Assembly (NCBI GenBank): GCA_945875845.1
Contig: CAMCMB010000079.1
Location: 1 to 33,269, forward strand
Reading direction: 5' to 3'
Length of the DNA: 33,269 bases
Origin: Pirellula staleyi DSM 6068
Lineage (GTDB): Bacteria > Planctomycetota > Planctomycetia > Pirellulales > Pirellulaceae
Notes under the pieces: generated by a model
The model's input: the letters and a program-made list of their open reading frames with translations, nothing else
Database searches by the model: none
What the model was told of the DNA's origin: nothing
In this document: piece by piece, positions 1-33,269 of the stretch
How positions within the stretch are numbered: position 1 is the stretch's first letter
Layout of the letters: each line of letters begins with the position of its first letter
Made by a program: the position numbers and the translations under genes

Positions 1-469
1 CAACAAAAAACGCCAAAGGAACTCAACGTTTCCAATGGCGTTAATGAAATCAAGATGCATGAACGGGATGGCATCCCCCATGCATCAGTCAGCAGCAGAG
101 CTCAAAGTATACCAACAGGCATAGAACGGACAATCTCATGGAGCGGAATAGGCAGTCGTCTTTCCACTACGCTCTACATGGGTTTTGTGGCGTGTTGCAT
201 CGAATGGTTCGTAGTTGGAACTTTACAGCCGAGCACTACCTTCATCCATATGAAGGGTGGCTAGTTCATGTCGTGAGACAGGAAACGAGCAGGGACTGGA
301 ATCGCAACCCAGTACGATGGCGAAGATCAAAATCAAATGTGCGGGCTACGTCCACCCTGACGACCCGTCACCTGCATAGCGTAATCATTCGGTCGACACC
401 ATCGGGCCCAATTGGTCAACATGCCAGTTGAGTAAGCTGACACCTAAACACCATACCGTACCGCATAAG
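1..469. other. Non-coding or unrecognised left end
   Basis: No open frame here looks like a protein I recognise; the frames at 55-264 and 138-431 have no ribosome binding site and no recognisable motif. I see no RNA gene. The stretch may be decayed sequence or the flank of the structured region that follows. Confidence 0.4.
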
Positions 470-1200
470 CAGCCAAAGGGGGCTATGCAGGGAAAGAGGG
501 GCGGTGTGCGACGACCCGGACGATAGGACCATGCCCCTTGAAATCCTATAGGCGGTCACCCCCAACGATACCTAGGGCGTACCATGCATTTCTGTTGCTG
601 TTTTTCGAGGGGGCCCTTGGCTAACCACTGGTTGAACCGGGGGGCCTGAGAAAATAGAGGGGTGACCACCTAGCGATACCACGGGCTACTTGCGTACGTT
701 TCCGCAAAACGAGAGCCCTAAACATGTGGCACCTTTTATTGATTGTTGGCAGGCGGATAGGTAGAATGGTCGGACTGCCCCCCATGCTTGCGGGTCCTTC
801 CGCCGGTCGAAACAGGGCCATGCGGGAGAATCAATCCCGGTTACGAGAGAGAAAGTCCGTCCAGTGTCCGGTGAATGAGCTGGGGGAAGTGGGGGCGGTC
901 TGCTTGCATGCCCCCATGCCCTTTTGGGTCCCTACTCAAGTTGCATTTCCCCCAATGCGATGGAACGTCCCGATTCTCTCACACATAGTTCCTAGTTCCG
1001 GCGGAATTGCTTTGGGGTCGGGGGCGGTCTGCTTGCATCCGTTCGTTGAGAGTCTTCTGCCTACCCACCCGTTCGTTTTTGTCCCCCATGGGGGACAATC
1101 TGCTTGCATCCGTTCGTTGAGAGCCTTCTGTCATCGGATTACAGAAGGACGACACTCTCGGCAAGGAGAGTGTTCCGAACCGTTCGGAACACCAGCATAA
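470..1200. other. Hairpin-rich, repeat-bearing non-coding region (possible structured RNA)
   Basis: The stretch is full of perfect pairings. GGTCACCCC at 554-562 pairs with GGGGTGACC at 659-667 and encloses a nested stem (612-620 with about 638-647) capped by AACC-ACT-GGTT at 624-634. Further downstream, 1081-1096 is a 16-bp palindrome, CCTTCTGT 1124-1131 pairs with ACAGAAGG 1141-1148, and ACACTCTC 1152-1159 pairs with GAGAGTGT 1166-1173. The last stem competes with an 11-bp arm palindrome at 1170-1192. No reading frame is convincing. I match it to no RNA family; the GTGCGAC at about 496 resembles a group II intron 5' end, but no domain 5 was found. Strand is not determined. Confidence 0.45.
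892..1132 (+). repeat. Three imperfect direct repeats with TCTGCTTGCAT core
   Basis: The core TCTGCTTGCAT occurs three times, near 898, 1028 and 1099, each preceded by a G-rich run. In the second and third copies the similarity continues through CCGTTCGTTGAGAG and CTTCTG, giving units of about 40 bases spaced about 71 bases apart. The nonamer TGCTTGCAT also occurs in the array before parA (near 22928), which may be chance. Confidence 0.6.
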
Positions 1201-1348
1201 AAAAGAGGGTCAGCCAATTGGCGGAACTCCGTTGAAGAGGCAGCTAAGACGATGAGCACATCCGAAAGGAGCGTGACAAGGGCAAAAGCTGTTAAGGACA
1301 AGGGAACGCCAGGGCTTGCCGACATGGTGCGCGATGGCAAGGATAGTG

Positions 1349-1365
1349 TTGTACACGGTGTACAA
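1349..1365. repeat. 17-bp palindrome
   Basis: TTGTACAC and GTGTACAA flank a single central base. The palindrome lies inside a doubtful small frame (1252-1491) and could be an operator or recombinase arm site near the attachment site. Confidence 0.4.
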
Positions 1366-1467
1366 GACGCTGAAAAACTAACCGGGAAAGGTCGGGCCAA
1401 AATCGGAAGAGTTCTTCCGGTCGATTCGATAGGTTCGTTGGCCGCAACCCGTCAGCCAACTACACAC

Positions 1468-1493
1468 TACTACACACTTGGAAAAGTGTAGTA
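1468..1493. repeat. Inverted repeat before the attachment site
   Basis: TACTACAC (1468-1475) and GTGTAGTA (1486-1493) form a perfect 8-bp stem with a 10-base loop. It may be a terminator or an accessory element of the attachment region downstream. Confidence 0.4.
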
Positions 1494-1606
1494 CGCGTTT
1501 TCCCTGCATTTTTCGGCATTTCAACGCAAGCCTTGCGATAGTCTGCAATGGTGCTAAACTGCTTAAAACACTGGGTTTTATGCGTTTTTCGTCGTTTCCC
1601 TGCCTT

Positions 1607-1650
1607 GCCTACGAAGCCGAAGGTTTCAGGTTCGACACCTGATGGGTGTA
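1607..1650 (+). other. Attachment-site half: 3' half of tRNA-Arg(ACG)
   Basis: The sequence threads exactly onto a tRNA from the anticodon loop to the discriminator. The parts are: loop CTACGAA (1609-1615, anticodon ACG), 3' anticodon strand GCCGA (1616-1620), variable loop AGGTT (1621-1625), T stem TCAGG/CCTGA with loop TTCGACA (1626-1642), acceptor strand TGGGTGT (1643-1649) and base A1650. Upstream there is no TCGGC strand, no D arm and no ACACCCA, so the 5' half is absent. Tyrosine integrases commonly use such 3' tRNA segments as att cores. One with its gene 180 bases downstream in the same direction is consistent with attP of an integrase element. Confidence 0.8.
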
Positions 1651-1829
1651 CTAAGTAAAACAAAGGGATTTTTGAATTTGGGCCTTTCCCAAAAATGCCC
1701 TTGGTACACAATTCGGTACAGAACCCAGACTTGGTACGTTTTGCTTCCCTCGCGGCATTCTGCTGCATATAGTTCTCAGCCAGTCCCTTCGGCTTGCATG
1801 GTGTGTATTCATGCTGAAGGAGATCATTC

Positions 1830-2968
1830 ATGGCTCGCTTACCCAAACCCTGGTATCGTCAAGACAGGTTAGCATGGTTCGTAACCATTGCGGGTGTTCG
1901 TCACAATCTCGGTCCAAACAAGAAAGCCGCATTCGATCAGTTCTACGAACTTATGCGGAAACCGGAAAAGAAAACCGTTTCAGCAAAAGCTTTTGCTGCT
2001 ATCGCAGACGCTTTTTTGGAATGGGTTCAAAAAAACAGGTCACTCGATACCTACGAGTGGTACCGCTATCGCCTGGAACGCTTTTGCCAGCGATATCCAG
2101 ACCTTGCAATCTACCAACTCAAGCCTTTTCACGTCCAACAATGGATAGATTCTTACGAAGCCCTTTCCAGAACATCCAAACGGAATTACGTACGCACGGT
2201 AAAGCGGTGCGTAAAATGGGCCAAACAACAAGGCTACACCGAACAGAATCCAGTTGAAGACCTCGAAGCGCCTGGAGCTGAATCGCGAGACCTTACAATC
2301 TCGACGGATGATTTTCGCGTACTCCTGACAAAAATTCCCGATGAGGCTATGCGTGAACTGTGCCTAGTTGCATTCGAAACGGGCTGCCGACCGCAAGAAA
2401 TCCTTGCGGTCGAAGCCAGACATTTTGAGTCAGAGAATGAACGCTGGGTATTTCCTGTCAAGGAAGCGAAAGGAAACGCATTGTCTACCTCTCCCAAGAC
2501 GCCCTGCGTATCTCAAAGAAGCTTGCGGCAACATACCCGACCGGTAGACTATTCCGAAACAGCAAAGGACAAGCATGGACTACCTCAGCCGTAAATTGTT
2601 CCTTCTGTCGGCTCCAGTATCGTACCGGCAAAGAAGCCATGCAGAATCAAGGAGTTAAGCTTGATGCTGCGATCCTCGAAGAAATCAAATTCGATGAGGA
2701 AACCATCGGCAAGAAGCTAAAAGATCTCACTCTCTCTCAACGGCGAAGACTAGCAAATCGTGCGTACGCAAGGTACTCCACCAAATACTCTCTGTATGCA
2801 CTTCGACACTCGTGGGCCACCAATGCACTCCGCTCGGGCATGGACGCATTGACTGTCGCAATCCTTATGGGGCACTCGGACCCTAGCACTCTAAGCAAGG
2901 TATATCAGCACCTAGCCCACAGCCCAGAACATATGCTTAAGCAAGCGAGAAAGGCATTGGGACAATAG
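1830..2968 (+). pseudogene. Tyrosine recombinase/phage-type integrase, frameshifted
   Basis: Two adjoining frames together make one integrase of about 379 residues. The first runs from the ATG at 1830 (preceded by AAGGAGATC) through an N-terminal core-binding domain to the first catalytic arginine in ETGCRPQEIL. The second frame reads IVYLSQDALRISKK onward and carries LRHSWAT (H-x-x-R), GHSDPST and the nucleophile region KVYQHL before a stop at 2968. Continuity is restored near 2470-2477 by adding one base to the A run, giving EAKGKRIVYL. This therefore looks like a single-base deletion in GGAAACGC. No classical slippery heptamer lies in frame, so programmed frameshifting is unlikely. It is either a true pseudogene or a sequencing error. 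It lies just downstream of the tRNA-Arg half-site, its presumed target. Confidence 0.85.
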
Positions 2969-3083: not shown

Positions 3084-3332
3084 TTATTTCAGTCGAATGT
3101 GTTTGAGCGAGGTCTTAACTGAATGCGCCTTTGGAACCGGTGCCGACACACTCTGAATGCTTGCGTCAAGATATGTCGTTAGATCTTCTTCGCGGACGCG
3201 AATCGCGCCACACTTGCTACCAACCCGCATCGAAGTCAAAACCCCAACTTTGATGAGCGAATAGACGCTTGCAAGGGAAATACGGAGACGATCGGATACT
3301 TCCCGAACGGTGAGAAGTCTTGATGGACTCAT
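3084..3332 (-). CDS. Excisionase/AlpA-like helix-turn-helix protein
   Basis: This 82-residue protein opens with RLLTVREVSDRLRISLASVYSLIKVGVL, a winged helix-turn-helix of the MerR-like excisionase type (HTH_17). It is followed by a wing ending in IRVREEDLTTYL. I chose the ATG at 3332 because it overlaps the stop of the upstream gene as ATGA, the usual mark of translational coupling; a longer frame from 3392 exists but would overlap that gene by 64 bases. Such proteins bind attachment sites and steer integrase toward excision, or act as AlpA-type activators. With its neighbour it forms a tandem pair beside the broken integrase. Which of the two, if either, is the true recombination directionality factor cannot be told from sequence. 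Confidence 0.8.
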   Translation of the reverse strand: MSPSRLLTVREVSDRLRISLASVYSLIKVGVLTSMRVGSKCGAIRVREEDLTTYLDASIQSVSAPVPKAHSVKTSLKHIRLK

Positions 3333-3586
3333 GATCTCACCCTTCGTCCGCTTTGAACAGCGTTCGAAACAGGACAAGCTGCGGCGATCCAATTTCGTAT
3401 CTCTTCAATTCGCCAACGAACTGCATTTCCAATCCGAATAGGGGATGGGAGTTGCCCGGCACTACGAAGCCGCCAAAGTGTACGGATTGACACTTGCAGC
3501 ATCGAAGCGACTTCTTTTGCTGTTACCAATGTTGGCTCAAAATTATTCTTCACTTCATGGTTACACGTGCGAAGACATTGTGCCAC
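3329..3586 (-). CDS. Excisionase/AlpA-like helix-turn-helix protein (first of pair)
   Basis: This 85-residue protein contains LVTAKEVASMLQVSIRTLWRLRSAGQLPSPIRIG, a clear excisionase/AlpA helix-turn-helix, followed by AVRWRIEEIRNWIAA, the typical second half of this family. It ends in a basic tail, SGRRVRS. The stop overlaps the start of the next gene as ATGA, so the two are co-translated. The N-terminal dozen residues may not be coding; a GTG at 3553 is an alternative start. Its 5' end overlaps the doubtful rightward gene at 3445-3978 on the other strand. Confidence 0.75.
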   Translation of the reverse strand: MAQCLRTCNHEVKNNFEPTLVTAKEVASMLQVSIRTLWRLRSAGQLPSPIRIGNAVRWRIEEIRNWIAAACPVSNAVQSGRRVRS

Positions 3587-4899: not shown

Positions 4900-5507
4900 T
4901 AGTGTGGGTCCTTGGAAGTAGAAGAAAGACGGCATGCCATTGAATAAAGCAATCGAGAATCTTCGATTCGCAGGGTGCTAAAGATGTCCGCAAGCTTTTG
5001 AAGAATCTGCAAAGACTCATCATTAAGGCCAAACGAAACAGAAGATTCTGCATAGCCTTCGCAAAGTTCTTTTGCAGCAACGATATCCGCTAAGCGACTC
5101 AAATTTTCGCTCTCGTCCAAAAGCCAATGCAGTTGTTCGTGACAACGCCGTGGTAGAACTTTTTCTAGATCTTCACAGTAAGGTTGCAGTACTTTTGCAT
5201 TTGCGTGAATCCCATTAGCCATTCGCAAAAGGCGAGATCGGCTAAGGTCATAAGCTTTCCACGCGGTTTCTAGCGCCGTAGTGATCTGAATCCTGGGAGA
5301 TTCATGTATCAGGCTTTGCAACTCCGCTCCGTAAGCCGTTTTGAGTTTCTTGTAGGCTTCGAGGCTGAGCGGAGCTTTACCATGCTCGATTAGCGACCAC
5401 GTTGGCTGTGAGACCTTCGCAATCGCTGCTATATCCTTCTGCTTAATATTTCGTTTCTGACGAAACCGTCTTAGGATTTGGCCTACTTCTTCCTGCGACT
5501 TCCCCAT
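4899..5507 (-). CDS. XRE-family regulator with C-terminal helical domain
   Basis: Residues 5-60 are a Cro/C1-type helix-turn-helix: EEVGQILRRFRQKRNIKQKDIAAIAKVSQPTWSLIEHGKAPLSLEAYKKL. The remaining 140 residues look all-helical, resembling tetratricopeptide-like or sensor domains, with no motif I can name. The gene is read leftward from the ATG at 5507 and its TAA stop overlaps the start of the phosphorylase-like gene as TAATG. The upstream region is AT-rich and holds a small palindrome at 5520-5533 that could be its own operator. The pairing with a nucleosidase-like enzyme suggests a control-and-effector unit, which is inference. Confidence 0.85.
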   Translation of the reverse strand: MGKSQEEVGQILRRFRQKRNIKQKDIAAIAKVSQPTWSLIEHGKAPLSLEAYKKLKTAYGAELQSLIHESPRIQITTALETAWKAYDLSRSRLLRMANGIHANAKVLQPYCEDLEKVLPRRCHEQLHWLLDESENLSRLADIVAAKELCEGYAESSVSFGLNDESLQILQKLADIFSTLRIEDSRLLYSMACRLSSTSKDPH

Positions 5508-5707: not shown

Positions 5708-6817
5708 ATGACCAAAGGCAAAAACAACGGAGCGAAAAACCATCGCACTCGCGAGGAGGCCCTTCAAGGTCCTCCAAACGCATTGGTACCGACAGTGGCC
5801 CGGAAACCCTCGGTCACACGACTGAGCACCGCTGACTTTGGGCAGGTGAGCTTGGTTGGCAAGCATGTCGGCGACCTTTTGGCCCAATGCCAAGCTAGCG
5901 AAGCGGCCGCTGCCATCATTCCTTGGTTCTGTGACGCCCTGCCCTCTGCGAAGTCGCGGAAAGACTACTACGCGGATATGTCTGCCTTCTTCCGAGCGAT
6001 GCAACAACAAGGCATTCATCCCTATCAAGTTTCCGGCGACCATGTGGCCATGTACAAGGAAGCCTTGCTCGAGCAAGGGCAGAAATCGTCAAGCGTAGCT
6101 CGCGCTCTTTCCGTCCTTCGTGGCACATATGAGCAGTTTGGAAAGAAAAACCTGGTGCCATGGGAGCGGGTCGGCGACATTCAAGGCGTGCAGTCTCCAC
6201 GTGTCACCAAAAACACGACGCCGAGTCTCAGCGAGGCCGAAGCTTGCAAGCTGCTCCACGCTCCCAATTTGGAAACCATCATAGGGATGCGTGACCATGC
6301 GATCCTCTTCACCTATTTCAAAACCGCTTGTCGTTGTGCGGCGGTCGCCAACGCCAAAATCGGCGATCTGGAACGCACCGATACCGATTGGTTTTTGGTG
6401 GTGACCGAAAAAGGCAAAAAGCAACGTCGCCAGCCACTCTTGGAAGCGGCGGCTCCCCTTCTCCAATGGGTCGAGAACTCGGGAATTGGATTTGCAGATC
6501 CAAAGTATCCGCTCTTTACGCCACTAGCCAACGATCGCAAAACTACGAAGCGGCGTGCGATGAGTCAGCAGTCGATTCTTGACGTCGTCAAGAAATATGC
6601 CCGCCAAGTCGGAATCCAGGTCGACCGCCAAGGAAGGCGGGGCGTTTGCACGCACTCGCTCCGGAAAACCGCCCTGAACAATGCTCTCGAGCATGGTGCA
6701 AAGGTCGAGGATGTTCAGCAATGGGCAGGTCATGCCGATCTTCGAACGACTCAGGAGTACATTGCCTACAAAGAAAAAGGTGCCGAGGAGGCTGCTAGGC
6801 GATGTCAAATACGATAG
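5708..6817 (+). CDS. Tyrosine recombinase (XerC/D-like)
   Basis: This 369-residue protein begins at an ATG preceded by AGGAGG. After a basic, low-complexity N-terminus (about 40 residues) comes a SAM-like core-binding domain (about 60-160). The catalytic domain shows TACRCAAVANAKIGDL (first Arg), the lysine hairpin VVTEKGKKQRRQPL, THSLRKTALNNAL (His-x-x-Arg), AGHADLRTTQEYIAYK with the second histidine position and the nucleophilic tyrosine. All catalytic positions appear intact, unlike the integrase at 1830. A perfect core-site-like repeat sits just upstream. Likely roles are multimer resolution of the plasmid or integration; the site supports the former slightly more. It is read away from the XRE gene. 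Confidence 0.9.
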   Translation: MTKGKNNGAKNHRTREEALQGPPNALVPTVARKPSVTRLSTADFGQVSLVGKHVGDLLAQCQASEAAAAIIPWFCDALPSAKSRKDYYADMSAFFRAMQQQGIHPYQVSGDHVAMYKEALLEQGQKSSSVARALSVLRGTYEQFGKKNLVPWERVGDIQGVQSPRVTKNTTPSLSEAEACKLLHAPNLETIIGMRDHAILFTYFKTACRCAAVANAKIGDLERTDTDWFLVVTEKGKKQRRQPLLEAAAPLLQWVENSGIGFADPKYPLFTPLANDRKTTKRRAMSQQSILDVVKKYARQVGIQVDRQGRRGVCTHSLRKTALNNALEHGAKVEDVQQWAGHADLRTTQEYIAYKEKGAEEAARRCQIR

Positions 6818-7381
6818 ACGAGTCATGGCGATGTTTGCTTAGACACCTCCTGCGGACCGCGACATCCGGGGCTTCGCTTCGCTCGGTGACTTGAGGTCAC
6901 GTCCCCCTACTCCCGCTGGTGCTACGGCCTCTTGTCCATCATCGGCCTAAATCGGATGCGGGGCGGTTCGTAGCAACGCCAAAGCCCGTTGCAACTCTCC
7001 GCTGCTCCCGCCTACTTCCCTTTGTGGCGAAAAACTTGCGGATTGAGACGCATTCGCGCTCACACCTTAAGTTCGCCTTTCAAGCAGTCCCGATTGAGTG
7101 CCTCGTTGGGCGCGGAAGGCATTTGCTTTCTTGAAAACAGGGGAGACCCCAGGGCCGTCAAGGCTCGGAGCCACGCGAGCCAATGCGGCTCCCTCCCCAT
7201 CTTCCGCGCTTCGTACCTTCGCTTGTGCAGACGGGTCCCCTCCTCATTCGCTCGGCCTTGACTGCCCTTCCCCCTAGGCCTTTGGCATTCGCCCCCCGGC
7301 TGTTTGAAAAACAGCGGGGCTGCTTCTCAGCAAGCAGACCAAAACCGCGTTCATTTCATTCACTTTGGGGAGAGTTTTATC
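6818..7381. other. Intergenic region with inverted repeats
   Basis: No gene is convincing in these 560 bases. They hold GTGAC-TTGAG-GTCAC near 6890, an imperfect 14-bp inverted repeat (AGGGCCGTCAAGGC 7151-7164 with GCCTTGACTGCCCT 7255-7268) and the strong hairpin at 7294-7319. The content looks like a leader or recombination region before ardC. Confidence 0.4.
7294..7319 (+). terminator. Strong hairpin in the ardC leader
   Basis: GCTGTTT (7299-7305) pairs with AAACAGC (7309-7315) around GAA, and CCCC/GGGG extends the stem past one bulged G. It precedes the ardC-like gene by about 60 bases, so it may terminate upstream transcription or shape the leader. Confidence 0.45.
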
Positions 7382-8347
7382 ATGTCGTCGACCGTTACCA
7401 CATCCGAGACCACGACCACCGCAACCAAACCCGCTCGAATCGATGTTTACGAGCGAGTAACCAACCGCATTATCGAACAGCTTGAACAGGGTGTTAGGCC
7501 TTGGATGAAGCCTTGGAACGCCGAGCATGCCGCTGGACGTATCACAAGACCGCTTCGCTTCAATGGCTTGCCTTACTCAGGCATCAATATCTTGATGCTA
7601 TGGGCCGAGGCAGAGGACAAGGGCTACTCTTGCCCATTGTGGCTCACCTTCAACCAGACCAAAGAGCTTGGGGGATTCGTCAAGAAAGGCGAACACGGTT
7701 CCACCGTTGTTTACGCTTCGACCTTCAAGAAGTCGGAAGCGGACGATAAAGGGGATTCAGTCGAGCGAGAAATCCCGTTCTTGAAGCAATACATCGTATT
7801 CAATGCCGAGCAATGCGAAGGCTTGCCCGAACATTACTACGCAACCAAAGAGCAACCCAATTCGACCATCGAACGGATTGAGCAAGCGGACCGGTTTTTT
7901 AAGAACTTGAACGCCGACATTCGCGAAGGAGGCGACAAGGCCTACTACACCATCACCCATGACTATATCCGCATGCCGTTTCTGGAGACGTTTCGCGATT
8001 CTGAAACCCATGCCGCAACCATGGCCCATGAGCTTTGCCACTGGACCCGACACCCAAAACGGCTTGATCGCGATTTAGGCCGCAAACGCTTTGGCGATGA
8101 AGGCTATGCCATGGAGGAGCTTGTAGCCGAACTTGGCTCCGCTTTCCTATGTGCAGATTTGAGCATCACGCCAGAACTTCGAGCGGACCACGCCGAATAT
8201 CTCGCAACTTGGCTGCATGTCTTGAAGAATGACAAGCGAGCCATCTTTACCGCCGCTTCCTACGCGTCGAAGGCAGTTGAATTCATGCACGGATTGCAGC
8301 CAAAAGATACCACCGTTTCCGATGTGTCAACCAAGGAAGGAAACTAG
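7382..8347 (+). CDS. ArdC-like antirestriction protein (ssDNA-binding plus zincin domain)
   Basis: This 321-residue protein starts at an ATG preceded by GGGGAGAG. Residues 20-145 match the ArdC N-terminal domain: DVYERVTNRIIEQLEQGVRPWMKPW, then NGLPYSGINILMLW and TFNQTKELGGFVKKGEHGSTVVY. This part binds single-stranded DNA in the family. Residues 165-290 are the polyvalent metallopeptidase-like domain with AHELCHWTRHPKRLDRDL (HExxH-type HELCH, 216-220) and the downstream glutamate in YAMEELVAELGSAFLC. ArdC proteins protect incoming plasmid DNA from restriction during conjugation. It is followed after 8 bases by a RadC-like gene, with which it probably forms an operon. An upstream in-frame ATG at 7304 has no good ribosome site. 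Confidence 0.9.
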   Translation: MSSTVTTSETTTTATKPARIDVYERVTNRIIEQLEQGVRPWMKPWNAEHAAGRITRPLRFNGLPYSGINILMLWAEAEDKGYSCPLWLTFNQTKELGGFVKKGEHGSTVVYASTFKKSEADDKGDSVEREIPFLKQYIVFNAEQCEGLPEHYYATKEQPNSTIERIEQADRFFKNLNADIREGGDKAYYTITHDYIRMPFLETFRDSETHAATMAHELCHWTRHPKRLDRDLGRKRFGDEGYAMEELVAELGSAFLCADLSITPELRADHAEYLATWLHVLKNDKRAIFTAASYASKAVEFMHGLQPKDTTVSDVSTKEGN

Positions 8348-8355
8348 GTGCAACC

Positions 8356-8787
8356 ATGATCGTAAAAGCCAAGATCACCGGAAAACTTGACAGCAACCAA
8401 AAGGTAGCGGACGCGCTTCGAACATGGCTCGCCGCTCAAAACATTGTCGACCAAGACAAGGAGCATTTTTGGGCAATCGGTTTAGATATCAAGCTGAAAG
8501 TGAAATACATCGAGGTTGTGACCATGGGAACACTAGACGCAAGTCTAGTGCATCCTCGCGAAGTGTTTCGCTTTGCCATCATGAACGGCGTATCTTCCAT
8601 CATCGTCGGACACAATCACCCGTCTGGCGATGTGTACCCGAGCAGTGAAGATCGAACCGTTACCAAACGACTCGCCGAGGCTGGCAGGCTGCTAGGCATA
8701 CCGCTCCATGATCACCTGATTATTGGAGAAGGCGAAGAGTTTTACAGCTTTGCCCAATCGATCCCGCAGGACTTGAAACAAGCCTGA
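8356..8787 (+). CDS. RadC-like JAB/MPN domain protein
   Basis: This 143-residue protein is almost only a JAB1/MPN+ fold of the RadC type. DIKLKVKYIEVVTMGTLDASLVHPREVFRFAI is followed by the metal-binding signature VGHNHPSGDVYPSSEDRTVTKRL and HDHLIIG. The N-terminal helix-hairpin-helix of chromosomal RadC is missing, as is normal for the copies found on plasmids and genomic islands. Zinc is presumably bound by the two histidines and the aspartate. The biochemical role is unsettled; plasmid copies often neighbour antirestriction genes, as here with ardC upstream. Confidence 0.9.
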   Translation: MIVKAKITGKLDSNQKVADALRTWLAAQNIVDQDKEHFWAIGLDIKLKVKYIEVVTMGTLDASLVHPREVFRFAIMNGVSSIIVGHNHPSGDVYPSSEDRTVTKRLAEAGRLLGIPLHDHLIIGEGEEFYSFAQSIPQDLKQA

Positions 8788-15998: not shown

Positions 15999-16390
15999 AT
16001 ATCGTCAATGATGGTGGCATTGTTGGGGCCGCTCGCCGCGTCCCCAAATTCGGATTCGCGAATCCATGGCACTTTGTGCCGAACAATGCCGGCAAACAAG
16101 CTGATGTTGTCGCGGACCATGCTGTTCAAATGCTGCCCAATGATGCGAACCGTCTTTCCCCCAAAATACAACGTAATGCCTTCTGATGGATCAAACTCGG
16201 CTTTCTCAAGCCATGCATAGCCATAACAAGTGATGTTGCCATTGCGGTGCCGTAGCTCCAGCATGATCGCTCGGTCGCGAACTCCTCGAAGCCAACCAAA
16301 TGATTGGAGGTCCTCCAGTTCTTGGTCGTCCACCATCCGGGTTTGGTTTTCGGTCCGCCCAGTGAGGCGGTCTAATATGCTATCGCTCAT
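15986..16390 (-). CDS. Hypothetical protein encoded with the relaxase
   Basis: This 134-residue protein has no family I recognise. It opens with a helical acidic part (MSDSILDRLTGRTENQTRMVDDQELEDL) and then a beta-rich stretch (AIMLELRHRNGNITCYGYAWLEKAEFDPSEGITLYFGGKTVRIIG) suggesting a small beta-barrel. Its start overlaps the 3' end of the relaxase gene by 11 bases, so it is translated after it and probably serves plasmid transfer, for instance as a DNA-binding or relaxosome accessory. That role is inference. Confidence 0.65.
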   Translation of the reverse strand: MSDSILDRLTGRTENQTRMVDDQELEDLQSFGWLRGVRDRAIMLELRHRNGNITCYGYAWLEKAEFDPSEGITLYFGGKTVRIIGQHLNSMVRDNISLFAGIVRHKVPWIRESEFGDAASGPNNATIIDDIQVK

Positions 16391-19013
16391 AGGCTAGCTC
16401 CTTTTGATGTTGCCGTTCATTTTCTCGCGTGTGACTCGGTGCGTTTCTCCTGGCAATCTCCGATGCACGACGATTGCCATCCACAAACTCAGTGGCAGAG
16501 AGGCGTTCGTCGCTTGTCATAATCTCATGTCGCAACGCACTCTTATCATCCGTATATATGGTTGCCTGTTTGGATCCTCGCGACACAGAAACGTAGAACT
16601 GCTCACGTGATGACGCTCGGAAGGATTCACTCGATTGGCCAATGAACACCCGGTCTACCGATTTTCCTTGTGACGCATGCGACGTGACCACGTAGCCATG
16701 CGTCAAATGGCCATAATCATGAGCAATGGTCCAACCATTTTCGGCAAGAACAATATCGCCTTGCGGCGAGAATTGTTTGATTGTGTAGATTGATCCGTTA
16801 TTGAGCCGATGTGCTCCGTCGGCGGTGGAGCCGTTTTGGGTGATCCGAATTCTGTCACCCTCTGAAAATGCAATCTCCCGGCTATGAAACGCTTGGAACC
16901 GCTTCGCATGTTCCAACGGCAAGGCATCGGCCTCGGCCACTGCAATTCGGTCCCCGCGTTTGAATCCTTTGGCGTTTTGATGAAACACCAAAACATCGGA
17001 TGGTTCATAATTGACTCGGTCGCCGCGTTCCGCTTCCGTAAGCCCCGCCGTCTCTAAGGTCGTAAAGTGATGCTCCTCCTTGCCTAAGACCTTTTTAATG
17101 CGAAGCTTGTCGCGAATCTCCGATGTAATTCGATTCCCTTCGGCATGGGTGGGCGATACCACTATGGCTGATTGGCCTTTGGCAATCGCGGCCACATAGT
17201 CCGCAGACATTTGGATATAGCGTTCATTGCTAGGCAGCTCCTTGACCCAGCCCATCGCATCGAGTTGATTGAAACCGTCGGTGATCTTTTGTTCGCTAAG
17301 CAGCTTTACGGCAGCTTTGTAGGTCCCTTGCTGGCGTTTGATCTCCTTCACCTCCGCTGAGACGATGCCCGCTTCGGTTTCTAGCAGTTTGAGAACCGAA
17401 CCGCGTTCAACCGAGGCATGTTGCTGGCGGTCCCCCGACAGCAACAGCCTCGCATCGATTCGCTCCGCCAATTCGATGGCCTGTTTCATGGTTTTCGTGC
17501 CTAGCAAGCCTGCCTCGTCGATCCAAATCAACTGGCCGGCGGCTTTTTGCTGAAGCTCAGTATCCACCAATAGCCGCGAAACCGTATCCGCATTTTCAAA
17601 CCCTGCCTCCCGCAACACGCCGCGACTGGCGTCGGCGGACGGAGCAAATGCAAACACATGTGTGCCCGACCGTTCAATGGCTTCCGCCGCTTCTTGCATC
17701 AGTGTCGTTTTGCCAACCCCTGCTGCACCGCGAAGCAGAATCACCCGATCACGTGAGCCAACGATGTGGCGGACGGCTGACTTTTGTGCGTCGTTAAGCC
17801 ATTCGCGTGTGAACCCCTGTAGATTCGAGTTGATAGGCTTGCAAACACCACGTCCCCTTCGCGCAAATTCGATCACACGTTTTTCTTCCGCCAGCACTTC
17901 ACGGGTGGTAATCATCTTTCGTCCATCGCGATCGCCGTGAATGAACGGAATCGTAGCCGCCTGTTTGAGCACATCTTCAACCTTTGCCGCACCCACCGAA
18001 TGACGCAATGCCAATGCAAGAACCTGGCGTTCAGGAACCACCGATTGACGCTCAAACGCATGGCTGGTTGCATATTCAAGGCTTTTGGCTGCCGCCGAGC
18101 TATCGGCTGGCTCTGCGTCGCTGCCAAGCCGACGCTCCAACGATGCGATTTCCAAAAGCTCTGCGGGGCTCATGCGTGCCCGCCATTCGCTTTGCAATTC
18201 CGTAAAGCTCATGTCCTTTTGTTTGCGATTGCGAGTTTTGGCTCCTAGTTCCGCTTTTTGCTCGACATTGTCGATTCCTTTTTCGCGTGCCAGCTCTTCG
18301 ATCTCATTCGTACGCCTCGAGAATTTGCCGAGCGTCGCTTTGCCAATGCTTTGCAACTCCCAGCCCTTGGCCGTTCGCTCGATGGGCAGGCCTAGTTCGC
18401 TAAGCCGATGGGCAAACCTGGAATGGAACACCGCTTCGAAATAGGGTGCATCGCGTTTCAGATTGCGAAACTGGCCCGCTTTGTAGGCTTGTTCTTTTTT
18501 GTCCCATGTCGCGTTAAAAACTAGACAATGGGCATGCAAATGTGGATCCGGCAAACCATTAACAGGCCGTGCCGTAAAATGCACGAACTCACCCCACACC
18601 ATGTTCCCCGTTTGACGGTTCTCGTTCTTGCCGTCTTTGCGTACCCGAGTGCTCATTTCCGCTTCCATGTCGTGCATGGTGCCATCAACCGCATCCCGAA
18701 ACGCATCCAGAATGCGTTCGTCACGCGTCATCGAATACAGCAGCGAGACACTTTTGGGCACATGAAAGTTAAAATCATAGCCAATTGTGCGTTCCGCCTT
18801 ATGGCGAAGCGTCAGCGGTTCCCCATTGTTCGGATTCTTGTTGTCACACAGCGATTCCCAGTCCTTCTGCTCGACTTTCCCCGTCAAGCCAAGTCTGGCT
18901 GCTCCAAGTCCTCGCCAACGCCCCTCAAGCTCCTGCCCTTCCGAATAGTAGTCGGCAGTCGAGTAGTAGCTTTTCGCACCAGCGGCATGAGTGTTTTGAA
19001 TGATACGCAACAT
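16380..19013 (-). CDS. MobF-family conjugative relaxase-helicase (TrwC/TraI-like)
   Basis: This 877-residue protein has the MobF layout. Residues 1-300 are the TrwC relaxase: the tyrosine motifs SYYSTADYYS (15-24), DFNFHVPKSVSLLY, and the three-histidine metal motif PDPHLHAHCLVFN (155-167, His158, 160, 162). Residues about 405-700 form a RecD-like helicase, with LLRGAAGVGKTTLMQEA (Walker A at 429-437), LIWIDEAGLLG (Walker B) and LSGDRQQHASVERG. The end (THGYVVTSHASQGKSVDRVFIG) is the C-terminal UvrD-like motif. It nicks the transfer origin, stays bound through a tyrosine and unwinds the strand. Its start is at 19013 behind GAGG. The neighbouring non-coding stretch to the right is where the origin of transfer would be expected. 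Confidence 0.95.
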   Translation of the reverse strand: MLRIIQNTHAAGAKSYYSTADYYSEGQELEGRWRGLGAARLGLTGKVEQKDWESLCDNKNPNNGEPLTLRHKAERTIGYDFNFHVPKSVSLLYSMTRDERILDAFRDAVDGTMHDMEAEMSTRVRKDGKNENRQTGNMVWGEFVHFTARPVNGLPDPHLHAHCLVFNATWDKKEQAYKAGQFRNLKRDAPYFEAVFHSRFAHRLSELGLPIERTAKGWELQSIGKATLGKFSRRTNEIEELAREKGIDNVEQKAELGAKTRNRKQKDMSFTELQSEWRARMSPAELLEIASLERRLGSDAEPADSSAAAKSLEYATSHAFERQSVVPERQVLALALRHSVGAAKVEDVLKQAATIPFIHGDRDGRKMITTREVLAEEKRVIEFARRGRGVCKPINSNLQGFTREWLNDAQKSAVRHIVGSRDRVILLRGAAGVGKTTLMQEAAEAIERSGTHVFAFAPSADASRGVLREAGFENADTVSRLLVDTELQQKAAGQLIWIDEAGLLGTKTMKQAIELAERIDARLLLSGDRQQHASVERGSVLKLLETEAGIVSAEVKEIKRQQGTYKAAVKLLSEQKITDGFNQLDAMGWVKELPSNERYIQMSADYVAAIAKGQSAIVVSPTHAEGNRITSEIRDKLRIKKVLGKEEHHFTTLETAGLTEAERGDRVNYEPSDVLVFHQNAKGFKRGDRIAVAEADALPLEHAKRFQAFHSREIAFSEGDRIRITQNGSTADGAHRLNNGSIYTIKQFSPQGDIVLAENGWTIAHDYGHLTHGYVVTSHASQGKSVDRVFIGQSSESFRASSREQFYVSVSRGSKQATIYTDDKSALRHEIMTSDERLSATEFVDGNRRASEIARRNAPSHTRENERQHQKELAYER

Positions 19014-23065: not shown

Positions 23066-23746
23066 ATGATCATCACTATTGCAAATTCAAAAGGCGGGGT
23101 AGGCAAGAGCACAATCGCTGTTCATTTGGCAGCCTGGCTCCATAAACACGGCCACCGTGTTACCTTAGCGGATTGCGATACCCAGCAATCATCATCGGAA
23201 TGGATTCGAGAAGCCGCACCGGATGTTCATACCATTCGACTGGACAATCCAAACGAAATTCTTAACGAGCTGCCAATCCTTGCGCAAGAAACCGATTTTG
23301 TAATTGCAGACGGTCCTGGAAGCCAAACAGAGACGAGCAGAGCCTTGTTGCTTCGCGCAGATCTCGGAATCGTCCCATGCAAAGCCAGCATGTTGGAGGT
23401 TCGGGCATTATCCAAAGCTACTGAGGTTCTTCGCCAATCGCAGGATATTCGCAATGGATTACCAAAGGCCGTAATCATCTTGAGCATGGTGGGCAAAAAC
23501 TATCGGTTGACCAAAGACATGAAGGACGCCGCAGCCGCGCTCAATTTGCCAATGACATCCAAGGCCATGGTTCTTCGGCAGATTTACGCTGACGCGCCAG
23601 GGCAGGGGCAGGTCGTTTGGAACATGGGGGCAAGAGCAAACGAGGCAGCAGTCGAGATTGATCGGCTCTTCCGCGAAATTTTGCCCGATGCTTGTGGAAC
23701 ACGGTCAAAAGTGACCATGAAACGAAAACAAGTCGTGAAAAGGTAA
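23066..23746 (+). CDS. parA: ParA-type partition ATPase
   Basis: This 226-residue protein is a ParA/MinD-type P-loop ATPase. ANSKGGVGKSTIAVHLA (Walker A with the signature lysine, 7-23) is followed by TLADCDTQQSS (A') and VIADGPG (B). The small size, and the lack of an N-terminal DNA-binding domain, is that of small plasmid ParA proteins. It segregates the replicon by interacting with a centromere-bound partner. The partner is probably the gene five bases downstream, and the centromere the repeat array upstream. Confidence 0.9.
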   Translation: MIITIANSKGGVGKSTIAVHLAAWLHKHGHRVTLADCDTQQSSSEWIREAAPDVHTIRLDNPNEILNELPILAQETDFVIADGPGSQTETSRALLLRADLGIVPCKASMLEVRALSKATEVLRQSQDIRNGLPKAVIILSMVGKNYRLTKDMKDAAAALNLPMTSKAMVLRQIYADAPGQGQVVWNMGARANEAAVEIDRLFREILPDACGTRSKVTMKRKQVVKR

Positions 23747-27289: not shown

Positions 27290-28345
27290 CTATCGCGGCG
27301 TCCCACGTCGTTCAAACCATTTGCGGCAGAAGCCGATGAACGCTGCGTCGCGATTTCGGGGTTCTTCGGTCATCCATTCAAGCCACTCGCGCTCAAGATA
27401 GTAAATGTCCCATCCAGGGCAAGCGTCCTTTGCTGCTTCGTAAGTCATCGTGTTCAAATAGCCAATCTTGGCGTCATCGAACTTGGCTGGAACGATTCCC
27501 GCCGTACCACGGCTTCGGAAGACAATCATTTCGCCGTCATCCATTTCAATGGAATAGTCGGGGATGTGCTGGTGCAATTGGTCCTCTTCGACGATTTGGC
27601 CAATCAGCCGCCGAAACTCCTTAAGCGTTGAGGCAGAACCGCACTTCAACTGGAGTCGCTCAAGCGAGATCTTCCATTCGCTTTGCTTGCCGCAGTGTTT
27701 GCGAGCGATCTCGTAGATTCGTCGCTCCAACGGCTTCCGGAGGCGAAAATAGTCCCGATGCAGAGTCAGGACCTCGTTGTGCCGGATGGCATTGAACACC
27801 CAATCCGAGAGCTTGACTTCAACTTCCTGCATTCGGCCATCGCGGGTTTCGCGAACGATGGTAACTCGTTCAATGAGTCCAAAGTTGTCGAAAACCTCTT
27901 GGCCGCCAGTGGCGACGTTGGTACTAATGCGAGTACCAGCAAGTCGCTCGAAAGCCGCCTTGAGAGCCTCGTATCCTTGCCCGCTTGTCATTCGGTTCGT
28001 AGCTTTGAGCAGGTCATGTGCACGAAACCGCAAAACTTGCGATACTTGTTTTCCTTCATTAATCGAACCCATAAGTTGCGATATGCAGTAGATCAAAACG
28101 TCGCGATCGTGAACCGTTGCAAGGCCATCCGCCGAAGGTTTGATCACGACATAGTTAGCCCCATTTTCATACCGACGAATTCGGTGGTCTGGCTTCGTTG
28201 ACAGGGAGAAGATTGGATGCTCCATCGAAGCCATGTCGCCCTTTGGAACTGCGTCGAAGATATCGCAAACAAGGAAGTCTGGTGTTGGGTGCCGGTCAGG
28301 GAGTAGGGGGGATCGATCTTTGAATTGGGCTGCGATTTCGGTCAT
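27290..28345 (-). CDS. Plasmid replication initiator (RPA family)
   Basis: This 351-residue protein matches the replication initiator protein A family. Signatures are FSLSTKPDHRIRRYENGANYVVIKPSADGLATVHDRDVLIYCISQL, then SQVLRFRAHDLLKATNR, YEALKAAFERLAGTRI, and DWVFNAI..LTLHRDYFRLRKPLERRIYEIARKHCG. These form two winged-helix domains. The C-terminal FCRKWFERRG completes the family. It initiates replication by binding iterons, of which six lie immediately upstream of the ATG at 28345. A broken second copy of its 3' portion lies at 29037-29128. Confidence 0.9.
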   Translation of the reverse strand: MTEIAAQFKDRSPLLPDRHPTPDFLVCDIFDAVPKGDMASMEHPIFSLSTKPDHRIRRYENGANYVVIKPSADGLATVHDRDVLIYCISQLMGSINEGKQVSQVLRFRAHDLLKATNRMTSGQGYEALKAAFERLAGTRISTNVATGGQEVFDNFGLIERVTIVRETRDGRMQEVEVKLSDWVFNAIRHNEVLTLHRDYFRLRKPLERRIYEIARKHCGKQSEWKISLERLQLKCGSASTLKEFRRLIGQIVEEDQLHQHIPDYSIEMDDGEMIVFRSRGTAGIVPAKFDDAKIGYLNTMTYEAAKDACPGWDIYYLEREWLEWMTEEPRNRDAAFIGFCRKWFERRGTPR

Positions 28346-29194: not shown

Positions 29195-29343
29195 TTTGCA
29201 CACAGGCCAGCCTATCAATCGAACATAATCCGATCACCAAACTAGGTCCTTTTGTCTGAATGTGTCAGGACTCCTTGACCAGACCCTCAAACTACCTCTA
29301 TTTTAGAGCGGAATTCCATCACGCTCATCTCATAGGATCATCT

Positions 29344-30900
29344 GTGGCCAAGAAAAAAGCCTCTACCAACGAAGAACCACTCGAAAAGCAGCTCTGGAAA
29401 GCAGCAGACAAGCTTCGAAAGAACATCGATGCGGCTGAATACAAGCACGTGGTTCTCGGGCTCATCTTTCTGAAATACATCTCGGATTCGTTCGAAGAGT
29501 TGCATTCAAAATTAGCATCAGGGGACAGCGAATACGCTGGGGCCGATCCAGAAGACAAGGACGAATACAAAGGCGAAAACGTCTTCTTCGTTCCTACGCA
29601 AGCTCGATGGACGTATTTGTTGAGCCAAGCCAAACAACCGACCATCGGTAAGACGGTCGATGATGCAATGGATGCGATCGAAAAGGAAAACCCAATCCTC
29701 AAAGGCGTCCTACCCAAAGTCTTCGCTAGGCAAAACCTCGATCCAACCAGCTTAGGTGAACTCATTGACCTCGTGGGCAACATCGCCATGGGCGATGCCA
29801 AGGCTCGCAGTGCCGATGTGCTCGGCCATGTCTTCGAGTATTTTCTCGGTGAGTTTGCTCTCGCCGAAGGCAAACAAGGCGGTCAGTTCTATACGCCTCG
29901 TTCCATCGTGGAATTGCTCGTCGCGATGCTTGAACCCTACAAAGGTCGCGTGTTCGATCCATGCTGCGGCTCAGGCGGTATGTTCGTGCAAAGCGAGAAG
30001 TTCGTTGAGCAACATCAAGGTCGCGTCAATGATATCTCCATCTATGGGCAGGAAAGCAATCAGACCACATGGCGGCTGGCCAAGATGAATCTGGCCATTC
30101 GTGGTATCGATGCCTCGCAAGTCGCTTGGAACAACGAAGGCTCGTTTCTAAACGACGCTCACAAAGATCTCAAAGCTGACTTCATCATCGCCAATCCTCC
30201 GTTTAACGTCAGTGACTGGAGTGGCGAGCTACTTCGCAAAGACGGACGTTGGACCTATGGCGTGCCGCCAGTCGGAAGTGCCAACTTTGCATGGCTGCAA
30301 CACTTTGTGTTTCACTTGGCACCGACGGGGCGCGCGGGCGTGGTATTGTCCAAAGGTGCGTTGACAAGCAAGTCCAGTGGAGAAGGGGATATCCGCAAGG
30401 CGATGATCGCAGATGGGAATCTTATTGACTGCATCGTTAACCTACCTGCCAAGCTATTTCTGAATACACAAATCCCCGCAGCGCTTTGGTTCCTCAATCG
30501 TACTCGAAAAAGCAAACACCCACGAAAAACAGAGATCCTTTTTATTGATGCTCGCAATCTTGGGCATTTAATCAATCGCCGCACCAAAGAGTTGTCTGAG
30601 ACCGACATCGAGCAAATTGCTAAGACCTATCACGCGTGGCGCACGGGCGAGTCTGGCTACGAGGATGTGAAAGGCTTTTGCGCGTCAGTGCAAATCGAGC
30701 GAGTTGCCGAGCTTGATTATGTCCTGACGCCTGGTCGATACGTGGGCCTTCCCGACGAGGAAGACGATTTCGATTTTGCCGAACGCTTTGCAGCACTCAA
30801 AGCAGAGTTCGAAGCACAGCTTCAGGAGGAGGCGAAGCTCAATCAAGCCATAGCCGAGAACCTAGCCAAGGTGAAAATACCTGAGGGCAAGGAGCAATGA
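29344..30900 (+). CDS. hsdM: Type I restriction-modification DNA methyltransferase, HsdM
   Basis: This 518-residue protein starts at GTG 29344 ([13 protein letters not shown] seven bases upstream); a start at ATG 29260 would add 28 unmatched residues. The N-terminal helical domain [35 protein letters not shown] is the HsdM N-domain. SAM motif [13 protein letters not shown] (204-215), QGGQFYTP and the catalytic NPPFNVSDW (284-292) follow, and the tail ([19 protein letters not shown]) is a coiled coil. It methylates adenine at the sites chosen by HsdS. Its stop overlaps the next gene as ATGA. HsdR is not in the window. Confidence 0.95.
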
Positions 30901-32027
30901 GCGATATCGTCAAGACCGATGAATACCGACAATGGATCGTATCCATCAAGAGACGGATCCAGGCATCGCAAATCAAGGCCGCTATTGCCGTCAATCGCGA
31001 GCTTCTCGAGCTGTATTGGTTTATGGGGCAGCAGATAATCGAACGTCAGGAGTCTGCCAAATGGGGTGACGGATTCTTGGTTCAGATGAGTGACGACCTA
31101 CTAAAAGAATTCCCTGAAATGAAAGGATTTTCACATCGCAATCTGAAGTCGATTCGCCAATGGTTTCGGTTTTGGAATTCCGCGTTAGAAATTGGGAAAC
31201 AGCCTGCTGCCCAATTGCCTCCAAAAGGGAAACAACTTGTTTCCCAAACAGAAACAAAGCAGCCACTGCCGAATTCGCCGATAACTCCAATTGCGCCACA
31301 ACTTGTATCGCAAATTCCTTGGGGTCACAACATTCTGATAATTCAGAAGTTAAGCGATCCAAAAGATGCACTTTTTTACGTCCAAAGAACGATCGAAAAC
31401 AATTGGTCTCGAGCCGTTCTGACCCATCACATCGAATCCAACCTGCACTTGCGCGAAGGGAAGGCTATCAACAACTTTGCTGCGACATTGCCTGAGCCTG
31501 AGTCCGATTTGGCAAAGCAACTCCTTCGCGATCCGTATAACTTCGACTTTCTGACGTTAACGCAGCGACACAACGAACGCGAACTGGAAGACGGTCTCAT
31601 CGAGCACATCACCAAGTTCTTGTTGGAACTCGGAGCAGGCTTTGCTTATGTCGGCAGACAGTATCGCATCGTCGTCGATGAGGACGAATACTTCATCGAT
31701 CTGTTGTTCTATCATCTTCGACTGCATTGCTACGTCGTGATAGAGCTCAAGGTCGACAAGTTCAAACCTGAATACGCTGGCAAGCTGAACTTCTACGTCT
31801 CAGCAGTCGACAGCCAGATTCGAACCGAAGGCGACGCAGCCACGATCGGCATTTTGATCTGCAAGTCCAAGAGCGACATTAAGGTCGAGTACTCGCTTAG
31901 AGACCTAAACAAGCCAATAGGCGTAAGCGAGTATCAGATAACGCAGAACCTGCCGGAGCAATTGAAGTCTTCGCTACCAAGCATCGAGCAGATTGAAGCA
32001 CAGTTTTTCAGTGAGCAACAACAATGA
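30897..32027 (+). CDS. DUF1016 (YhcG-like) PD-(D/E)XK nuclease-like protein
   Basis: This 376-residue protein has an N-terminal DUF1016 domain ([21 protein letters not shown], then [17 protein letters not shown]). A variable middle (95-145) is rich in Q and P. Then comes [41 protein letters not shown]. At the C-terminus is a PD-(D/E)xK core, [27 protein letters not shown], with the D and E-x-K residues in place. Such genes often sit in type I operons between hsdM and hsdS, where their role is unsettled; nuclease activity is inferred. The start overlaps hsdM as ATGA and the stop overlaps hsdS. Confidence 0.9.
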
Positions 32028-33127
32028 TCGGAAATTGGACCGAAGTAACCTTACAAGCAATAGCCGATATTATTCCTGGATTCGCGTTCAAGGGAACAGA
32101 TTTTGGTGACCTCGGCGAGTTAGTCATCAAGATCAAGGACATTTCGCCGCCTATAATTGACACATCCGCTGCCAAACGAGTCGAACTTAAAAAGTATGCC
32201 GGAAAAAGTTTTGCAAAGTACCAAATTCAAAAAGGCGATTTTGCTATGGCAATGACAGGGGCAACTATCGGAAAAATTGGACGCTGTAACTCGAGAATCG
32301 TCGCTTACATAAATCAGCGAGTGGCGAAGATTTCGCCGAAGAAAAGCGTTGATCGTGACTTTGTATATCACGCACTACAAGTACCAGAATTCGAGCAATT
32401 CATCCAAAACAATATCGATAGCCATAGCGCACAGGAGAACATAAGCGGTAACAGCCTTGGACGTTTTCCAATACTGTTGCCAAACAAACTGTCAGAACAA
32501 CGCGCGATCGCATCTGTGCTCAGTAGCCTAGATGACAAGATCGACCTGCTCCATCGCCAAAACAAAACGCTCGAAGCCATGGCCGAAACCCTCTTCCGCC
32601 AGTGGTTTGTGGAGACTACTTGCAATTCTTGGGCAATCCAACCGCTAAGCGGTATAGCAGATTTCCTCAATGGGCTAGCATGTCAGAAATACCCGCCGAG
32701 TTGTCCGTCCGATTGCCTTCCGGTCCTTAAGATAAAGGAACTTACTTCTGGCATCAGCGAATCAAGTGACGTTGCATCAGCAAACGTTAAACCCGAGTAC
32801 GTTATTAACGGAGGCGATGTGATATTCTCATGGTCGGCTACTCTCCTCGTAAAGATTTGGGATGGTCCGACTTGTGTGTTGAATCAGCATTTGTTCAAAG
32901 TCACCTCCGCAGAGTTTCCGAAATGGTTTTTCTATCTTTGGTGCAAGCATCACCTCGAAGAATTCAAAGCAATATCAAGTGCTCATGCTACAACGATGGG
33001 TCATATAAAACGAAGTGATCTTGATGAGGCGATGGTCCGCATTCCGCCAAACTTAGAATTGAGGAAGATGAACGCTGTAATTGCGCCGATTATTGAAAAG
33101 ATCGAGAGCAATAATCGGCAACTGTGA
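32024..33127 (+). CDS. hsdS: Type I restriction-modification specificity subunit, HsdS
   Basis: This 367-residue protein starts at ATG 32024, overlapping the gene before it. The first target-recognition domain (WTEVTLQAIADIIPGFAFKG to NSLGRFPILLP) is followed by the conserved spacer helix SEQRAIASVLSSLDDKIDLLHRQNKTLEAMAETLFRQWFVE. The second domain (NSWAIQPLSGIADFLNGLACQ to LRKMNAVIAPIIEKIESNNRQL) ends at the stop. Relatives usually continue with a coiled tail; here translation ends exactly after NRQL, so the C-terminal helix is shortened by about 25-35 residues. This could be due to an insertion just after the gene. The subunit sets the DNA target of the methylase. Confidence 0.9.
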   Translation: MIGNWTEVTLQAIADIIPGFAFKGTDFGDLGELVIKIKDISPPIIDTSAAKRVELKKYAGKSFAKYQIQKGDFAMAMTGATIGKIGRCNSRIVAYINQRVAKISPKKSVDRDFVYHALQVPEFEQFIQNNIDSHSAQENISGNSLGRFPILLPNKLSEQRAIASVLSSLDDKIDLLHRQNKTLEAMAETLFRQWFVETTCNSWAIQPLSGIADFLNGLACQKYPPSCPSDCLPVLKIKELTSGISESSDVASANVKPEYVINGGDVIFSWSATLLVKIWDGPTCVLNQHLFKVTSAEFPKWFFYLWCKHHLEEFKAISSAHATTMGHIKRSDLDEAMVRIPPNLELRKMNAVIAPIIEKIESNNRQL

Positions 33128-33269
33128 CCGTCGTCTGAAAGGGAGCCATTTTCGGCGGCGCTTTGGGAGCCACTTTTGATACTTCCGTCGTGCGCCTTCT
33201 TCTTCCGCCGTTTTTCTTAATTTCCTACTTAGAAAAACGAGAGATATCTCGCAAGTATTCCTTCTTTGA
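33128..33269. mobile_element. Possible insertion sequence end
   Basis: GGGAGCCATTTT (33141-33152) and GGGAGCCACTTT (33165-33176) are repeated 24 bases apart directly after the truncated hsdS, as in the terminal repeats of some IS21-like elements. The window ends before a transposase can be seen. A CGAGAGATATCTCG palindrome lies near 33237. Confidence 0.45.

Follow-up and report, generated by a model that had tools for sequence, protein, structure and literature searches.

Islands that integrate at tRNA genes can recombine within the anticodon loop, where the incoming 3' half is exchanged with that of the chromosomal tRNA; the gene is rebuilt and the old half is displaced. Several islands may be stacked at one such gene. 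In the tandem arrays described in the available part of the Islander paper, a whole tRNA precedes a series of islands, and every island has an integrase and a displaced tRNA fragment of its own (PMC4383910). Islands at tRNA genes are recognised there by counting copies, with one displaced fragment per island, and a crossover centred on the anticodon is among the common subsites; a table in the same part lists 3919 islands and 125 tandems with at least two members (PMC4383910). Tandem tRNA-site arrays are a known minority among islands, and the junction between tandem islands is already a known kind of structure. The phrase 'tandem accretion' appears once in the accessible part of a review on integrative and mobilizable elements (IMEs) (PMC5704250), and among the titles and beginnings of abstracts listed, none matched tandem tRNA-Arg islands in planctomycetes.

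The window, that is, the whole stretch of DNA that was analysed (33,269 bp), is contig C79 at its full length in a planctomycete assembly of 7.0 Mb and 149 contigs. It carries the 3' half of a tRNA-Arg(ACG), which is very probably an att site inside an array in which two unrelated islands, A and B, stand in tandem at one chromosomal tRNA-Arg(ACG). As in the Islander tandems, one whole tRNA is accompanied by two strong halves, one displaced 3' fragment per island, and each island has an integrase of its own: integrase A on contig C104 lies 115 bp behind the whole tRNA, and the frame-broken integrase B, with its ATG at 1830, lies 180 bp past the half. Unlike in those tandems, island A has an integrase from a family that targets many types of tRNA, and a set of plasmid-type replication and partition genes is present in island B. 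Island B is like IMEs in having an integrase and a relaxase with no pore genes among the 32 window ORFs scanned, and differs from them in that it also has the plasmid-like RPA and ParA and that its tRNA-adjacent integrase is frame-broken. The RPA initiator is like those of RPA-type plasmids of Roseinatronobacter, Paracoccus and Tabrizicola, presumably alphaproteobacterial, which are its best matches (64.8-69.6% identical in the best 12 of 1179 matching plasmid records); unlike them, the gene here stands in what appears to be an integrated element of a planctomycete chromosome. The features of the window are as follows.

1..1606, no strand assigned: presumed to be the right-hand end of another element (island A), left of the junction, unlike the DNA left of the half on contig C42 and carrying A-type motifs.
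1460..1494, plus strand: A-type motif cluster, in which 35 bp hold two copies of CTACACACT and one of GTGTAGTAC; the same motifs stand at C104 18300-18317 and on contig C34.
1607..1650, plus strand: 3' half of tRNA-Arg(ACG), the probable junction att core between islands A and B, 45/46 identical to the C104 tRNA.
1703..1723, plus strand: B-type motif pair, made up of two copies of GGTACANAA at a distance of 12 bp; the sole other pair in the DNA scanned is at C42:4854-4874.
1830..2968, plus strand: integrase B, a tyrosine recombinase (Pfam) with its frame broken near 2480 (ORFs 1830-2594 and 2639-2968).
3084..3392, minus strand: small HTH_17 protein (Pfam HTH_17, E 2.1e-8), possibly an excisionase-type factor.
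5708..6817, plus strand: second tyrosine recombinase with an intact frame (Pfam Phage_integrase, E 8.7e-19).
7304..8787, plus strand: ArdC-type anti-restriction protein and RadC-like protein (Pfam).
16380..19013, minus strand: TrwC-type relaxase with helicase domains (Pfam TrwC, E 8.1e-68).
23066..23746, plus strand: ParA-type ATPase (Pfam CbiA/AAA_31).
27290..28345, minus strand: plasmid replication initiator RPA (Pfam RPA, E 6.9e-86).
29260..33127, plus strand: type I restriction-modification genes, namely hsdM, a YhcG-type nuclease and hsdS (Pfam), of which hsdS is interrupted by an insertion sequence (IS), with hsdR on C42.
33118..33122, plus strand: GCAAC, one copy of the target site duplication, whose second copy follows the IS at C42:153-157.
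33123..33269, plus strand: left end of the IS (147 bp), common to five other contig ends.

Window 1607-1652 is identical at 45 of 46 bases to the whole tRNA-Arg(ACG) at C104:18147-18221. The match begins within the 5' strand of the anticodon stem and ends just beyond the discriminator base. Its sole mismatch, C to A in the T loop, is private to the window copy. It either arrived with the attP of island B or drifted after displacement, the latter being possible because a displaced half is no longer part of a tRNA gene. The 30 bases preceding the half show, as judged by eye, no resemblance to a tRNA 5' half; ARAGORN detected no tRNA gene in the window, and Rfam, applied to the window and to stretches of C104, C42 and C9, matched the C104 tRNA alone. 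The original prediction had called a tRNA-Arg(ACG) half lacking a 5' half and had suggested a search for a complete tRNA-Arg(ACG) with the matching 3' half, and both are present in this genome. The second copy of the core that it proposed to look for is absent from the window contig, where a search with a 28-base core that tolerated up to 3 mismatches gave a single match (0 of 100 shuffles matched), and is found instead as a further half at the other end of the element, on C42. Strong copies of the core in the whole assembly are three, namely the window half, the whole tRNA on C104 and a bare half at C42:5014-5056 that is identical to the tRNA; one whole copy and two strong halves are the number that two stacked elements need.

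The window is linked to C42 through the IS. The left end of this IS is found on six contig ends including that of the window and its right end on two (C42 and C14), and it is the right end that opens C42 at positions 1-152. The same IS at the C69/C14 junction is flanked by TAAGT on both sides. The window closes with hsdM, the YhcG nuclease and hsdS, and hsdR follows at C42:227-3502, with the C42 tRNA half about 1.5 kb after it. Because the IS ends with their 5-bp GCAAC duplication and the succession from hsdM-hsdS to hsdR agree, the window continues into C42.

In the proposed order, the chromosome leads into the whole tRNA-Arg of C104, which is followed by integrase A with the rest of island A, the window half (1607-1650), island B, the C42 half (5014-5056), and again the chromosome. 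Island B would then consist of the broken integrase B and the rest of window 1651-33122, an IS, and C42:153-5013. With each integration in the anticodon loop, the incoming 3' half would make the tRNA gene whole again, and the old half would be displaced to the far side. Island B probably entered first and supplied the 3' half of the tRNA, and island A, with a different integrase for the same tRNA target, would have entered later at the rebuilt tRNA and pushed the half of island B inwards. Excision of island A by recombination between the C104 att site and the window half could still occur; excision of island B by its own tRNA-adjacent integrase is probably not possible, if the frame break is real.

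The start of island A is seen on C104, where integrase A stands directly behind the whole tRNA and is truncated by the contig end. The SDR and PfkB genes neighbouring this tRNA are conserved (97% and 96%) near tRNA-Arg in the related genome G024. A near-identical island start occurs on contig C34 (L005:18222-19387 on C104 versus L113:11674-12839 on C34, 96% DNA identity over 1,166 bp), where it stands behind a whole tRNA-Arg(TCG); the two integrases are 98.6% identical, and both tRNAs (ACG and TCG) are intact, each with its own 3' half. Contig breaks come in pairs: exactly 149 bp are common to C104 and C34, and likewise to C79 and C9, which is the pattern of a repeat with two copies; the first 149 bp of the window are identical to the end of C9, and positions 1-782 are 91% alike. 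The simplest reading is that the core of island A is one repeat, present twice and missing from the assembly, whose middle would join C104 to window base 1; no contig spanning these two points was found. Parts of window 1-1200 also recur on C9, C39 and C126.

Short motifs pair the island ends. On C104, the words CTACACACT and GTGTAGTAC make up a site that resembles a palindrome; it lies some 80-96 bp past the whole tRNA. In 247,041 bp of DNA scanned from the same genome, CTACACACTT has three occurrences (the window cluster, C104 at 18300-18317, and C34), the A-type words stand side by side only in the window, C104 and C34, and the B-type pair recurs only at the C42 position given above, left of the C42 half. 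As single words, CTACACACT is found on C133, GTGTAGTAC on C14 and GGTACANAA once more on C42 in the scanned DNA. The C104 island start is thus paired with the left of the window half, and the right of the window half with the left of the C42 half; cross pairs of A and B ends have only chance-level 8-base words in common. These tests were devised after the motifs had been seen, and they cover 247 kb of 7.0 Mb. The longest single words shared by island ends are weaker, modest evidence, as equal or longer ones arose in 1 of 300 base shuffles for A and 29 of 300 for B, and words of 10-13 bp are also common to unrelated ends. The A-type and B-type motifs are probably the arm-type integrase sites of islands A and B.

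Positions 1-1606 might instead come from a third element or from rearranged DNA and not from the C104 island. This is a variant in which the half is still an internal junction, so its probability overlaps with that of the array as drawn above, and it seems unlikely. In its favour are the unassembled middle of island A and the two ORFs scanned in this part (1-261 and 724-1200), which have no Pfam match at E 0.1. It would also fit the similar copy on C9, which shows no tRNA half: a tRNA-Arg(TCG) half is expected there, where the second copy of island A should end on the right, but the 40 kb of C9 examined contained no such half, nor did a search of the assembly at E 1e-3 find one. On the other hand, the A-type motif pairs common to the C104 island start and window 1460-1494, found otherwise only on C34 in the DNA scanned, argue against it, as does the equal 149-bp pattern of the breaks.

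The original prediction took the half to be the attP of an autonomous circular plasmid, with the argument that the left end of an integrated element should show a whole tRNA gene. That argument does not hold where the tRNA side has received a second island, and the free circle is now very improbable. The order of half tRNA and integrase fits such a plasmid, as do the genes for replication, partition and mobilization that were predicted on the element and identified by Pfam as RPA, ParA and the TrwC relaxase. However, the proposed check for a circular contig gave no overlap between the first and last 300 bases, and the right end of the contig passes through the IS, with its 5-bp duplication, into C42. 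Furthermore, BLASTN between the DNA left of the window half and the DNA left of the C42 half, at the right end of the element, finds only the 43-bp core in common; because these two flanks differ, an attP of island B is excluded. The assembly contains no further strong copy of the core that could be a separate attP. The window half also lacks like motifs on its two sides, unlike a tRNA-Arg half in the related genome G026 (L045:1823-1867, contig C177), which by eye is flanked on either side by GGTAGTAG-type motifs and is followed by an integrase; this arrangement suggests a real attP or a place where two like elements meet. A second half at the far end in a chromosomal contig, with chromosome genes to the left, had been named as the pattern of an attR: the second half is indeed present, on the chromosomal contig C42, but the DNA to the left of the window half resembles another island and not chromosome genes. 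What stands of the predicted plasmid able to integrate at tRNA-Arg is the set of plasmid-type genes and the tRNA-Arg target, now read in an integrated island. A half tRNA before an integrase is therefore insufficient for calling a plasmid attP, since stacking at the same tRNA gives the same picture; in draft assemblies, the pairing of end motifs and the target duplications of insertion sequences can settle the matter. An assembly chimera, in which the half is a false bridge between two unlinked sequences, is the least credible alternative. Short repeats such as this 43-46 bp core, present three times in the assembly, can be mis-joined, but the examined breaks share about 147-149 bp, far longer than the core, and the window copy has a private base.

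With the half in the window placed between two stacked islands, the half on C42 is most likely the original, displaced chromosomal 3' end, an attR, which is supported but not proven. It is read so because the following sequence resembles the native tRNA terminator of relatives: 27-61 bases past the half, it is similar, in register, to the same stretch behind the whole tRNA-Arg(ACG) in G005 (83% over 35 bp) and G020 (79% over 34 bp), and the match includes a terminator-like hairpin with a T run. Such a match was found in 2 of 21 loci of relatives and not in the other 19, the 21 being the 23 listed loci minus that of C104 itself and one cut at a contig end. In the same comparison, the bases after the C104 tRNA matched themselves and had one out-of-register match of 13 bases, and the bases after the window half matched only themselves. 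Synteny of genes was also considered as direct proof of a chromosomal right flank, and failed. C42 is collinear with contig C4 of G024 only from 10,982 to about 20,200, in pieces of 79-88% identity; C42:5057-10981 is not, and a different gene forms the right flank of the half in G024. The DUF1501 and CAAX genes are on another contig in G024 with other neighbours, and the porin adjoining the C42 half has no tRNA-Arg within the 20 kb examined in G009 or G011.

As it carries RPA, ParA and the TrwC relaxase, island B may have existed as a plasmid in the past, or may still do so. From its sequence context, the best reading is that it is integrated in the chromosome, and a free form was not seen in this assembly. 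The mobility genes of the window are the relaxase and the two tyrosine recombinases; genes for a conjugation pore or type IV secretion were found neither in 32 scanned ORFs of the 102 listed (at least 80 aa) nor in 3 ORFs of C42:1-5013. Candidate roles of the second tyrosine recombinase are a resolvase, part of a nested element, or a spare integrase. Type I restriction-modification genes and YhcG-type nucleases lie near this tRNA-Arg in three genomes (L036, L037 and the window), and they are perhaps a recurrent cargo next to this gene.

Integrase B has a SAM-like domain in its N-terminal part and Phage_integrase in its C-terminal part according to Pfam. The alignment of most relatives with the first piece stops at about residue 217, that of a few at residues 224-238, and many of the relatives have open frames of 400 aa or longer; the frame break may be due to decay or to a sequencing error. 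Integrase B has matches in 57 of 241 genomes. Relatives were also found in four named genomes, all of them planctomycetes, and the host is accordingly taken to be a planctomycete. Among the matches listed, 33 loci were compared (29 and 4 from two sources, with possible duplicates between them). A whole tRNA on the same strand lies 131-290 bp upstream of the integrase in 26 of these, 22 being tRNA-Arg, two Asp, one Asn and one Pro; the remaining 7 have no whole tRNA in the locus. The prediction that the half is an attachment core beside its integrase agrees with this predominance of tRNA-Arg (22 of 33 listed loci).

Integrase A belongs to a family with matches in 88 of 241 genomes. The present part of integrase A itself gave no Pfam match, and its relatives L043 and L046 match Phage_integrase. 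Thirty loci among the matches listed (L150-L179, that of C104 included) were taken as a sample, and 27 of them have a whole tRNA 115-160 bp upstream. The three others (L155, L162 and L178) have none, L155 being a half-tRNA locus at a contig edge. The tRNAs of these 27 loci cover ten amino acids (Arg, Val, Met, Gly, Pro, Cys, Ala, Lys, His and Phe), and the spacing range becomes 114-160 bp when L113 and L114 are counted as well. In the same genome as the window, a 58% relative is located behind tRNA-Pro(TGG). This target range is a more unusual lead than the tandem junction. It is conceivable, though doubtful, that members of the family switch their tRNA target with all else kept. If so, islands with integrase A would swap the 3' tRNA half that they carry, stacking would be made frequent by such switching, and the window junction would record one round of it. 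The nearly identical island starts of C104 and C34, behind tRNA-Arg ACG and TCG, are a possible case of target switching within one genome.

Halves of tRNA-Arg(ACG) are found in 5 of 27 genomes of the genus (G000, G016, G017, G024 and G026), which suggests that this gene collects islands in this planctomycete genus; in the present genome, two unlike integrases share it as target. In G026, an integrase follows the single whole tRNA-Arg(ACG), and there are three halves besides, no two of which have the same integrase. This genome was considered as a closed triple tandem with an integrase-less terminal half, which was rejected when an integrase was found behind that half too. In the genome of the window, a degenerate match to the core (39 bases, 82%) lies on contig C24. 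This piece (L008:8568-8608) corresponds to a tRNA-Arg 3' half at about 82-85% identity; the 19 kb examined around it contain no whole tRNA, and it is possibly an old att scar.
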